Shown here in pieces: positions 11,745-45,757 of a stretch of 64,000 nt of DNA. The translations under genes and the position numbers were made by a program. The stretch covers positions 496,001-560,000 of the forward strand of contig NZ_NIOF01000001.1 of assembly GCF_002205645.1 (NCBI RefSeq). The letters run 5' to 3'. Under the pieces are notes generated by a model. That model did not search any database. It had not been told where the DNA came from and was given only the letters and a program-made list of their open reading frames with translations. The stretch comes from Roseateles aquatilis. GTDB taxonomy: Bacteria > Pseudomonadota > Gammaproteobacteria > Burkholderiales > Burkholderiaceae_C. Every line of letters starts with the position of its first letter. The first letter of the stretch is position 1.

Positions 11745-12587
11745 ATGCAAGTTCGAGTCGTCGACTACCGCGCCGCGGATGCGGCCGAGCAATTCACCCG
11801 CTCCCTGCACGAGACAGGTTTCGGCGTCCTGGTGAATCACCCCCTGCCCCAGAGCCTGGTCGAGAAGATCTACGGCGACTGGCTGGGCTTCTTCAACGGC
11901 GGCGAGAAGCAGGACTTCGCGTTCTCCAAGGAGACGCAGGACGGCTACTTCTCCACCGAGATCTCGGAGACCGCCAAGGGTCACACGCAGAAGGACATCA
12001 AGGAGTACTTCCACATCTACCCGTGGGGGCGCGTCCCGGCATCGCTGAAGGATGACGCGATGGAGTACTACCGGGTGGCCAACGACCTGGCGGCGGAGTT
12101 GCTGTCGTGGGTCGAGCGGCACACGCCGGCCGACATCGCGAAGAACTATCGCGAGCCGCTGTCCAACATGATCAATGACAGCCGGCTGACGCTGCTGCGG
12201 GTGCTGCGCTATCCGCCGCTGACGGGCAACGAGCCGGCCGGTTCGCTGCGCGCGGCGGCGCACGGGGACATCAACCTGCTCACCATCCTGCCGGCGGCCA
12301 ACGAGCCCGGCCTGCAGGTGCAGGGGAAGGACGGCGAATGGGTCGACGTGCCCGGCGACTTCGGCATGCTGATCATCAACATCGGCGACATGCTGCAGGA
12401 GGCCTCGCAGGGCTACTACCCGTCGACGCAGCACCGCGTGGTCAACCCGACCGGCGAAGGCGCGAAGAAGAGCCGCGTGTCGTTGCCGCTGTTCCTGCAT
12501 CCGCGGGAGGAGGTCGTGCTGTCCGATCGGTACACCGCGCACGAGTATCTGGAAGAGCGACTGCGGGAGCTGGGGGTCAAGACCTGA
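11745..12587 (+). CDS. 2-oxoglutarate/Fe(II)-type oxygenase, isopenicillin N synthase family
   Basis: A 280-residue non-haem iron oxygenase of the isopenicillin N synthase-like family. The double-stranded beta-helix has the iron triad H173-x-D175 (AAHGDINLL) and H230 (STQHRVV), with the oxoglutarate-binding R244-x-S246 pair. The N-terminal DIOX_N-type region contains TGFGVLVNHPL. I chose the ATG at 11745 because AGGAG lies eight bases upstream and the family fold begins there. The substrate is unknown: relatives include ethylene-forming, flavonoid-type and gibberellin-type enzymes. It is divergent from sucA, so a 2-oxoglutarate consumer faces the enzyme that burns the same metabolite. Confidence 0.85.
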   Translation: MQVRVVDYRAADAAEQFTRSLHETGFGVLVNHPLPQSLVEKIYGDWLGFFNGGEKQDFAFSKETQDGYFSTEISETAKGHTQKDIKEYFHIYPWGRVPASLKDDAMEYYRVANDLAAELLSWVERHTPADIAKNYREPLSNMINDSRLTLLRVLRYPPLTGNEPAGSLRAAAHGDINLLTILPAANEPGLQVQGKDGEWVDVPGDFGMLIINIGDMLQEASQGYYPSTQHRVVNPTGEGAKKSRVSLPLFLHPREEVVLSDRYTAHEYLEERLRELGVKT

Positions 12588-12629
12588 CACGCCGGATGCC
12601 CTCGGATGTCTTCGCATGCCTCGGATCGA

Positions 12630-12701
12630 GTCGGCGAAAGCCGGGGCGGAGGCGACGATTTGGCGAGCATATGAGGAGCCCCCGCTCCGGCTTTCGCTGA
12701 C
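12630..12701 (+). repeat. Stem-loop repeat element, copy A
   Basis: A 20-base inverted repeat (12630-12649 with 12682-12701, 18 of 20 paired) encloses an extra GGC/GCC pair and a 24-base loop, 12654-12677. The loop starts GACGATTT and ends TATGAGGA. Copy B at 43885-43955 (minus strand) has the same loop ends and a similar GGCGAA..GCCGGGG stem. It sits 42 bases downstream of the oxygenase stop codon, in the same transcription sense. Confidence 0.7.
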
Positions 12702-12759
12702 GGGCGCACGCGGCCCCTCCCTGCGACCGCCTCGGCCCGGCTCGGGGCTACAGTGCCAA

Positions 12760-42212: not shown

Positions 42213-43754
42213 TCAACCTTGGGCCGCGACCCGCTCCGTCTTGCTTTGCAGCTTGTTCAGAGCGCTCAAATATGCTTTGGCCGAGGCGACGACGATATCG
42301 GGGTCTGCCCCCACACCGTTCACCACGCGCCCCGCATGTTGCAGTCGCACCGTGACTTCTCCCTGCGATTCTGTGCTTCCGCTGGTGATGGCGCTGACGG
42401 AATACAGCAGCATTTCGGCCCCACTTTCGACCTTGCTCTCGATGGCCTTGAGGACCGCGTCGACCGGCCCGTTGCCGTCGCTCTCGGTGCGATGCTCGAC
42501 GTCGCCGGCCGAGAACACCACCTGCGCCTGGGGGCGCTCGCCGGTTTCGGAGCGCTGCGCCAGGGCCACCAGGCGGAAGTGCTCCTGGTCCTGCGTGACC
42601 GATTCATCCATGACCAGCGCGATGATGTCCTCGTCGAAGATCTCGGACTTGCGGTCGGCCAGGTCCTTGAAGCGGACGAAGGCGGCGTTGATCTCCGCCT
42701 CCGATTCCAGCACCACACCCAGCTCCTGCAGGCGCTGCTTGAACGCGTTGCGGCCGGACAGCTTGCCCAGCACGATGCGGTTGGCGCTCCAGCCGACGTC
42801 CTCGGCGCGCATGATCTCGTAGGTGTCGCGGGCCTTCAGCACGCCGTCCTGGTGGATGCCCGACGCATGCGCGAAGGCGTTGGCGCCGACCACGGCCTTG
42901 TTCGGCTGGACGACGAAGCCCGTCGTCTGCGACACCATCCGCGACGCCGGCACGATCTGCGAGGGATCGACGCGCACGTCCAGCCCGAAGTAGTCGCGGC
43001 GCGTCTTCAGCGCCATCACGACCTCCTCCAGGGAGCAGTTGCCCGCCCGCTCGCCCAGGCCGTTGATCGTGCATTCGATCTGTCGCGCACCGCCGATCTT
43101 CACGCCGGCCAGCGAGTTGGCCACCGCCATGCCCAGGTCGTTGTGGCAGTGCACGCTCCAGATCGCGCGGTCGGAGTTGGGGACGCGCTCGCGCAAAGTC
43201 CGGATGAACTCGCCGTAGAGCTCCGGGATCGCATACCCGACGGTGTCGGGGATGTTGATGGTGCGGGCGCCCTCCTTGATCACGGCCTCGACGACACGGG
43301 CCAGGAACTCCGGGTCGGACCGATAGCCGTCCTCGGGCGAAAACTCGATGTCGTCGGTCAGCGTGCGCGCGAAACGCACCGCCTGCGTGGCCTGCTCCAG
43401 CACCTGCTCGCGGCTCATGCGCAGCTTCTTCTCCATGTGGAGCTCGCTGGTCGCGATGAAGGTGTGGATGCGCGAGCGCGCCGCCCCCTTGAGCGCCTCG
43501 GCGGCGCGCGCGATGTCGCGGTCGTTGGCCCGCGCGAGCGAGCACACCGTGCTGTCCTTGATCGCCTCGGCGATCGCCCTCACCGCCTCGAAGTCACCCT
43601 GGCTGGAGGCGGCGAAACCAGCCTCGATCACGTCGACCTTGAGCCGCTCCAGTTGCCGCGCGATGCGCAGCTTCTCATCCTTGGTCATGGACGCGCCGGG
43701 CGACTGCTCACCATCGCGAAGGGTGGTGTCGAAGATGATCAACTGGTCGGTCAT
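42213..43754 (-). CDS. leuA: 2-isopropylmalate synthase, short form (LeuA type 1)
   Basis: A 513-residue enzyme condensing acetyl-CoA with 2-oxoisovalerate, the first step of leucine synthesis. Motifs: [12 protein letters not shown] at the start of the TIM barrel, [20 protein letters not shown] with the metal-binding His residues, and a C-terminal regulatory LeuA-dimer domain. I start at the ATG at 43754, next to [15 protein letters not shown]; the open frame further upstream reads through the stem-loop repeat and has no family resemblance. It lies 317 bases downstream of a second, longer leuA on the same strand. Homocitrate or citramalate synthase are less likely alternatives. Confidence 0.9.
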
Positions 43755-43884
43755 GGTCGGGCTTCCTTGGGGCGGTGGCTCGTGTCGGTGGGGCGGTGGT
43801 CGTTTGGAGGTGCGTTCGGGCGAGCGGCTAGCGGTCTGGTCGCTCTGGCCAATCTGGCGGCCTGTCGACCGCACCACCGGGCGC

Positions 43885-43955
43885 GGCGAAGGAAGCCGGG
43901 GGGCGGCTTCCTCATAAGTCCCAAAATCGTCAGCCGCCCCCCGGCTCCCTTCGCC
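43885..43955 (-). repeat. Stem-loop repeat element, copy B
   Basis: A 24-base inverted repeat (43885-43908 with 43932-43955, 23 of 24 paired) encloses a 23-base loop. On the minus strand the loop starts GACGATTT and ends TATGAGGA, as in copy A at 12630-12701. It lies 117 bases after the stop of the upstream leuA and 131 bases before the downstream leuA start. The rest of this 317-base gap (43755-44071) shows no gene. Confidence 0.75.
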
Positions 43956-44071
43956 CACACACACCGCGCATCACGCCCTCCCAGACCGCGGACCGAGGTT
44001 CTCGACCTGGGGATCGCTTGTCGTGGGTGGCGGGCCTTGGCGTGTGCGCGTGGGTTCGCTTTGTCTCGATC

Positions 44072-45757
44072 TTAGGCGGTGACGCGGTCGGCGAGTTTCA
44101 GGATGCCGCGCTGCGCGGCACGGCGCAGGCCGGACACGATCGCCTTCAGCGACGCGGAAGCAATGTTGCCGTCCATGCCAACGCCAAACAACGTCGCCTC
44201 GCCCACGCGCAACTCCAGATAGGCCACCGCCTGCGCGTCGGCGCCGCTGCCCATCGCGTGCTCGTGGTAGTCGAGCACCCGGACCTGCGTCTTCAACACC
44301 TTGTTCAGGCCCTCGACGAACGCGTCGATCGGACCACTGCCCTGGCCGTCGATCTTGACCATGCGCACGCACAGGTCGGCCTGCGCGCTCACCGTCGTCT
44401 GGCCATCGGCGGCCGTGCCGATCTGCGGATGCAGCGCCGGCGCCTGCTTGACACCGTACTCGCGGTCGAAGATCTGCCACAGGTCCGCGGCGCCAAGCTC
44501 CTTGCCGTTCGTGTCCATCACGCCCTGGACAATCTGGCTGAACTCGATCTGCAGGCGGCGCGGCAGCTCGACGCCGTACTCGGCCTCGAGGAGGTAGGAG
44601 ATGCCGCCCTTGCCCGACTGGCTGTTGACGCGGATCACCGCCTCGTAGCTGCGGCCCAGGTCCTTGGGGTCGATGGGCAGGTAGGGGATCTCCCAAATGT
44701 CGTCCGCCTTGCGGGCCGCGAAGGCCTTCTTGATGGCGTCCTGGTGCGAGCCGGAGAACGAGGTGTAGACCAGCTCGCCCACATACGGATGCCGCGGATG
44801 GACCGGCAACTGGTTGCAGTGCTCGACGCAGCGGCGGATCTCGTCGATGTCGGAGAAGTCCAGCGCCGGATGGACGCCCTGCGTGTACAGGTTGAGCGCG
44901 ACATTCACCAGGTCGAGGTTGCCGGTGCGCTCGCCGTTGCCGAACAGGCAGCCCTCGACGCGATCGGCGCCCGCCATCAGCGCCAGCTCCGCCGCCGCCG
45001 TGCCGGTGCCCCGGTCGTTGTGCGGATGCACCGACAGGATCACGCAGTCGCGACGCTCGATGTGGCGGCCCATCCACTCGATCATGTCGGCGTAGATGTT
45101 GGGCGTCGAATGCTCGACCGTGGTCGGCAGGTTGATGATGATCTTGCGATCCGGCGTCGGTCCCCAGGCGGCGGTGACAGCGTCGACGACGCGCTTGGAG
45201 AAGGCCAGCTCGGTGCCCGAGAACATTTCCGGCGAGTACTCGAAGCGGAAGTCCGTCTCCGGCTGCCGCTCGGCCATCTCGCGGATCATCGCGGTGTGCG
45301 TGACGGCGAGGTCGACGATCTCGTCCTCGGTCATGTTCAGCACCACGCGGCGCATCACCGGCGCGACCGCGTTGTACAAGTGCACGATCGCGCGCCGGGC
45401 GCCGACCAGCGACTCGAAGGTGCGCGCGATCAGCGGCTCGCGTGCCTGCGTCAGCACCTGGATCGTGACGTCGTCGGGGATGTGCCCCTGCTCGATCAGC
45501 AGGCGGACAAAATCGAAGTCGGTCTGCGAGGCGGACGGGAAACCGACCTCGATTTCCTTGAAGCCGATCTTGACCAGCATCTGGAACATTCGCAGCTTGC
45601 GCTCGGCGTCCATGGGCTCGATCAGCGCCTGGTTGCCATCGCGCAGGTCGGTGCTCAGCCACAGCGGCGCCGTCGTGATCTGCGCATCGGGCCAGCGGCG
45701 GTCCGGGAGAGCGATGGGCGCGAAGGCGCGGTACTTGGTCTGCGGTTGCTTGAGCAT
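44072..45757 (-). CDS. leuA: 2-isopropylmalate synthase, long form (LeuA type 2)
   Basis: A 561-residue enzyme of the long LeuA form, with the same reaction as the downstream leuA. Motifs: [16 protein letters not shown] at the barrel start, [20 protein letters not shown] (metal-binding His), [11 protein letters not shown], and a C-terminal allosteric domain. The diverged RDGNQAL instead of RDGEQSPG separates the two forms. It is preceded by a leucine leader peptide and an attenuator, so transcription should fall when leucyl-tRNA is plentiful. It follows pssA on the same strand but has its own promoter. Confidence 0.93.

Follow-up and report, generated by a model that had tools for sequence, protein, structure and literature searches.

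Among the short dispersed palindromes of bacterial genomes are the REP families. According to the part of PMC8266576 available to us, TnpA-REP binds REPs as single-stranded DNA, strand-specifically, by way of mismatches or loop bases. The accessible part of PMC3733652 gives a stem length of 5-13 bp for the GTAG REPs (Table 1) and reports REP families with copies inside the uvrA and DnaE2 genes of distant bacteria. Here we describe hairpins from Roseateles aquatilis and related bacteria which, in our judgment, are probably non-autonomous mobile elements that resemble REPs and REPINs, constitute a new family and act as single-stranded DNA hairpins. We found no description of it in the literature consulted, including the accessible portions of PMC5217627, PMC2817692 and PMC2267715, subscription papers falling largely outside this search.

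The window, that is the whole stretch of DNA analysed, comprises 64,000 nt of the R. aquatilis contig NZ_NIOF01000001.1 (positions 496,001-560,000; assembly GCF_002205645.1). A search for GACGATTT-N(5-12)-TATGAGGA returned two matches, 12654-12677 (+) and 43909-43931 (-), for a mean expectation of 0.00 over 100 shuffles, and each of the two loop motifs caps a long stem. The two matching stem-loops, A and B, pointed out by the initial annotation were present as described according to motif search, stem scoring and folding, with the following features:

12629..12653, + strand, copy A, 5' arm of the outer stem (sequence, stem scoring)
12654..12677, + strand, copy A, module GACGATTT, tip GGCGAGCA and TATGAGGA (motif search)
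12678..12702, + strand, copy A, 3' arm of the outer stem, then GGGC (foot GACGGGC)
43932..43956, - strand, copy B, 5' arm of the outer stem (sequence, stem scoring)
43909..43931, - strand, copy B, module GACGATTT, tip TGGGACT and TATGAGGA (motif search)
43884..43908, - strand, copy B, 3' arm of the outer stem

Both copies (loci L006 and L007) have an outer stem with a score of 24 bp; when G.T is tolerated, A contains one mismatch and B is free of them. Folding z-scores of -7.08 (A) and -8.63 (B) were obtained as RNA, and of -5.32 and -8.26 as DNA, and the GACGATTT strand out-folded its complement in all four comparisons (A and B, RNA and DNA). Copy A lies 42 nt downstream of a same-sense ORF ending at 12587 and copy B 116 nt downstream of a same-sense ORF ending at 44072; inspection by eye showed no T-run after the stem of either copy, and the hairpins in the window gave no Rfam 15 match at gathering score. 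Copy B sits between two ORFs (window 42213-45757, -), both of which resemble 2-isopropylmalate synthases. Elsewhere in the window, a sucA RNA motif (RF01070; 11404-11488, -, 85.6 bits) is found just upstream of a 950-aa ORF, presumably encoding 2-oxoglutarate dehydrogenase E1.

The hairpin is not confined to these two copies, and its loop is conserved in relatives. In the R. aquatilis genome itself, the strict motif occurs eight times and a looser motif nine times, while the covariance model recovers 12 copies, six of which, A included and B not, carry the foot GACGGGC (by eye). Three tandem copies with a 144-bp spacing were also observed in this genome (G000:C12:220600-220930). The loose motif was detected in 37 of 399 same-family genomes, R. 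aquatilis included, and the reversed-motif control in none among the matches listed. A stem (score 8 or more) was present on at least one fetched copy in 27 of these 37 genomes and absent from the fetched copy in eight; G381 and G390 were not fetched. The 241 distinct motif matches in the collected loci fell into 118 with a stem score of 8 or more and 123 below, a bimodal distribution (116 of the 123 at 0-2, 114 of the 118 at 14 or more, 7 at 5 to 13). Two of the 123 low-scoring matches are nevertheless family members: the stem of L162 is broken, and L202 is truncated where its contig ends. At L162 (1800-1910, in uvrA), a hairpin pair seems to have collapsed into the arm of one hairpin, the module and the arm of the other, with loss of pairing.

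The named carriers are Rhodoferax lacus and MAGs of Rhodoferax, Hydrogenophaga, Comamonadaceae and Burkholderiales. A search of 31 genomes with a laxer filter gave matches in 8 of the 19 belonging to the g97 group and in none of the 12 from other families. An order-wide model search, in which copies may have been missed because 13 candidates were scored per genome, matched at least 4 of 399 genomes, among them G714 with a weak match that lacks the module. Scanning of genome contigs with the loose pattern revealed stems in 10 of 120 among the matches listed, nine of these with a label at or below the level of Burkholderiales; the tenth, L027, is labelled as a Cryomorphaceae MAG. Among the matches listed for viral contigs, none of at least 120 motif-bearing contigs had a stem. 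No match was found in phage records; four plasmid records matched at E about 0.6, and in the one inspected the match was unannotated. Sixteen family loci searched against Rfam 15 gave sub-threshold matches alone and none at gathering score.

Comparison of the copies defines a unit of about 76 nt, made of an outer stem, an apical module and, in many cases, a very small hairpin at the tip whose pairs covary. Among 114 copies chosen for a stem score of 14 or more, the outer stem measures 22-28 bp in 101 and under 16 bp in none. Watson-Crick pairing reaches at least 73% at every position up to 24, collapses beyond 25 and is 30% at position 26. The length of the stem is nearly constant and its sequence is free, to the point that stems differ strongly even between copies of one genome, a difference that simple recent transposition does not give. 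At the foot of the hairpin, a minority of copies show further motifs. CGRGC is present at +22..+28 in 17 of 60 (0-1 in windows from +30 on), and a GYAG-like G[CTG]AG at -30..-24 in 22 of the 60 copies, which are non-redundant (4-11 in windows further out), GTAG proper occurring in at most 1 of 60 copies in any window.

The apical module consists of GACGATTT facing NATGAGGA, an arrangement in which G.A/A.G and U.U mismatches may stack on one another; its invariance in our alignment arises by construction, the module being part of the search pattern. We infer a stacking order of C-G, G.A, A.G, U.U and U-A from the substitutions tolerated in model-found copies, in which, by eye, the outer G.A pairs become Watson-Crick in L247, L251 and L252, and the U-A beside U.U becomes G-C in L257 and L259. 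The tip forms in many copies a covarying hairpin of 2-4 bp (helix 2, 89.4% of cells paired). Where an open central loop was originally proposed, the relatives suggest an 8x8 mismatch module topped in many copies by this small hairpin; no clear hairpin is visible in the tip of copy B, TGGGACT.

The covariation score of the 57-sequence alignment was 0.909 compared with 0.208 after shuffling, a value reached by 0 of 500 shuffles. Since possession of a stem was the criterion for entering a copy in this alignment, the proportion of paired cells is in part a product of selection. The whole structure holds 421 cells with double changes versus 123.6 in shuffled alignments, and all 18 outer pairs changed on both sides; the number of pairs with a double change (21 versus 19.1, reached by 18 of 500 shuffles) is a less telling measure. 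Compensatory change was also found at orthologous sites. In 21 orthologous copy sets, selected by the author and composed of cells that share ancestry and are not independent, 203 of 1152 compared cells differ, of which 87 are double changes paired in both copies, 65 involve wobble and 51 are unpaired in one. Covariation and compensatory change uphold the earlier proposal of a constraint on both structure and loop sequence, and the retention of orthologous sites with compensatory change suggests that the hairpins have resided there for long, as would be expected if they had kept a function.

The mismatches of the stem are strongly polarized. At positions 1-22 of 111 copies, we counted 148 G.T/T.G, 13 A.C/C.A and 51 other mismatches; the corresponding figures for all 118 copies whose stem scores at least 8 are 154, 20 and 65. 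G.T may be slightly favoured in these counts, since the stem score forgives it. By group, G.T versus A.C amounts to 57 to 2 in g97, 44 to 3 in g68, 13 to 2 in the own genus and 6 to 2 in g104. The bias is alike in copies between genes and in copies within them. For copies inside long ORFs, a class that took in doubtful ORFs such as L004, L007 and L136, it is 30 to 3 in the 23 antisense copies and 33 to 1 in the 21 sense copies. A second count was restricted to named genes, identified by family or motif or, in the case of L160, L164 and L179, by their resemblance to genes so identified. Here the 19 antisense copies, which lie inside uvrA, hrpA and leuS, give 19 to 3 and the 19 sense copies 33 to 0. 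The persistence of the bias in antisense in-gene copies means that the GACGATTT strand matters, and not as mRNA of the host gene; as read from these sequences, the bias points to single-stranded DNA or to a transcript of the element itself.

When single copies are compared with the local GC skew (G111, G214, G118, G412 and the R. aquatilis genome), their orientation does not look random, but it differs from genus to genus. In G111, the hairpin strand is opposite the G-rich strand in 8 of 8 single-copy loci in which the hairpin was re-found; for L448, L453 and L455, where it was not, the strand given by the model agrees weakly in one and disagrees in two. The same orientation is seen in 6 of 6 copies of G214, partly orthologous, and in 9 of 12 copies of R. 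aquatilis, several at weak skew, and the contrary one in 7 of 10 copies of g104 (L476, L477, L480-L484).

Location just downstream of a gene in the same sense, initially noted for A and B, holds for these two and not as a general rule: orientation to flanking genes is mixed, both orientations occurring. Clean intergenic copies lie between convergent genes in 21 of 47 cases and between divergent genes in 3 of 47. Moreover, 44 of 114 copies lie inside ORFs of 450 aa or more, some of them doubtful, and named genes hold 38 copies, 19 per orientation. Open frames run through the copies in leuS, uvrA, dnaE2 and hrpA, the last being a carrier in g97. The in-frame hairpin of G112 leuS adds about 28 residues (ends set by eye from protein strings), and 13 of the 16 leuS genes examined (out of 30 loci), that of the same-genus G215 included, are without an insert at that place, providing a filled and an empty site. 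Two leuS genes (G016 and G023; L388 and L391) carry at the same place, by eye, a different hairpin-like insert, GGCACGGG..ATACCCT..CGCC; this place may be an insertion hot spot. A copy is found in uvrA in at least 11 genomes or records, and some uvrA genes hold two or three inverted pairs. In group g134, where three genomes have any exact-motif copy, all six are in uvrA (G148, G240, G370) or dnaE2 (G240, twice, and G370), and the hairpins of the two genes are very similar, with a common upstream stretch. Inverted pairs, whose starts are about 110-215 bp apart, account for 14 of the 26 copies of G111 (seven pairs). Many copies, inverted pairs, copies within genes and a filled site facing a same-genus empty one bear out the dispersed REP/MITE-like family suggested by the initial annotation, and mobility is the probable reading of this pattern. 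For copy A, a search for an empty site in 16 genomes of the genus, its own included, met a downstream region too diverged to align.

Insertion into existing palindromes was considered as a general rule and rejected: complementarity of the flanks beyond the stem hardly exceeds the mismatched-flank control (6 or more in 11 of 60 copies versus 11.6%; 7 or more in 3 of 60 versus 3.7%), the exceptions with palindromic surroundings being L027 and its near-copy L053. In these two unrelated loci (L053:300-445 and L027:550-700), a MITE-like element of about 150 bp with TTGGGGTCAGATCAACATTAATTT ends encloses the hairpin; at both loci it occupies the middle of a small palindrome, which is not the same in the two.

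Three other explanations can be weighed against these data. For the small structured RNA envisaged at the outset, the DNA repeats would be the genes. Its transcription would start at a promoter of its own or result from read-through, and the product would be a protein ligand or a substrate of RNase III. The G.T preference and the covariation suit RNA as well as single-stranded DNA, and tandem G.A modules, common in RNA, fit it too. However, the strand bias does not follow transcription of the host gene: antisense copies in uvrA, hrpA and leuS keep it, 19 to 3, so that such an RNA would need an antisense transcript there. The mixed orientation to flanking genes and the lack of a gathering-score Rfam match, for the window hairpins as for the 16 family loci, also speak against this RNA, which we regard as unlikely.

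The excess of convergent over divergent settings (21 versus 3 of 47) would fit a transcription terminator or a stabilizer of mRNA 3' ends between genes, but A and B lack a T-run, 44 of 114 copies occupy long, if partly doubtful, ORFs, the 38 copies in named genes are divided equally between the two senses and the strand bias is independent of transcription; such a role is quite improbable. Equally improbable are passive palindromes, whose arms would be kept identical by template switching (quasi-palindrome correction) and whose structure would serve no use. They would account for the free stem sequence and for arms matched even within coding sequence, but leave unexplained the conserved module, the near-fixed stem length and the preponderance of G.T mismatches over A.C (148 to 13), which spans groups of different replication orientation, albeit weakly in g104.

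Under the preferred reading of a mobile single-stranded DNA hairpin, the element would act as the folded GACGATTT strand, and the apical mismatch module with the tip would be recognized by an enzyme specific for hairpins and supplied in trans, the candidates being a Y1/HUH transposase or another single-stranded DNA recombinase. The stem of about 25 bp could serve as a spacer placing the cut at the base of the hairpin, its sequence being free provided that pairing holds. Of the 21 Y1-transposase matches listed, 10 loci were searched with the hairpin model; the one match was weak (E 0.83), so that no convincing copy adjoins a Y1 gene in these loci. A conserved Y1 gene is present in 190 of 200 family genomes, far more than carry the hairpin, and 4 of the 5 loci of this gene examined have their own AATTAATTGGG-type inverted repeats. 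These searches do not support a RAYT as the mobilizer.

It is conceivable, but doubtful, that these hairpins are single-stranded DNA elements that are directed towards DNA repair genes of the SOS type, or retained there; uvrA and dnaE2 would be such genes in these bacteria. If so, insertion would occur at single-stranded DNA exposed in the damage response, or in-frame hairpins would tune repair genes. The direction of wobble in sense versus antisense copies offers a simple test separating function in host mRNA from function as single-stranded DNA or own transcript, and the closely related carrier genomes allow insertion to be followed. The family also adds a further case of hairpins amassed in uvrA and dnaE2, a pattern found elsewhere and left unexplained in the accessible part of PMC3733652.

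As far as the available parts of the sources go, the hairpins share with the GTAG REPs/REPINs and their TnpA-REP (RAYT) short dispersed palindromes and inverted dimers, a preference for gene 3' ends and copies inside uvrA and DnaE2 genes (PMC3733652), as well as G.T pairing and stem mismatches (PMC3733652, PMC8266576). They differ by a stem mostly of 22-28 bp instead of the 5-13 bp given there, by a stem sequence that is not conserved, by a tag that seems absent or, in a minority, GYAG-like instead of GTAG, and by the lack of an adjoining RAYT gene in the loci examined. CGTC-tagged REPs, Rickettsia RPE-4/RPE-6 and Neisseria dRS3 resemble them, according to the same accessible part of PMC3733652, in forming in-frame palindromes in coding genes and paired copies with no known transposase, but have stems of 8-9 bp, loops of 4-5 nt and an unpaired CGTC end, whereas our family carries the reverse complement of GACG at the apex and not at the end. 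The TIR-type MITEs of TIRYT transposases (GGGGWSAS repeats) recall the hairpins of L053 and L027, located in the middle of an element of about 150 bp with TTGGGGTCAGATC ends; in contrast, both ends were found within 250 bp in these 2 alone of 111 scanned copies. The family is REP-like and of unusual design, with a conserved apical module on a stem of near-fixed length and free sequence. Integron attC sites are recognized as folded single-stranded DNA, with a stem of largely free sequence and fixed shape, and in these traits they may be likened to the hairpins described here.
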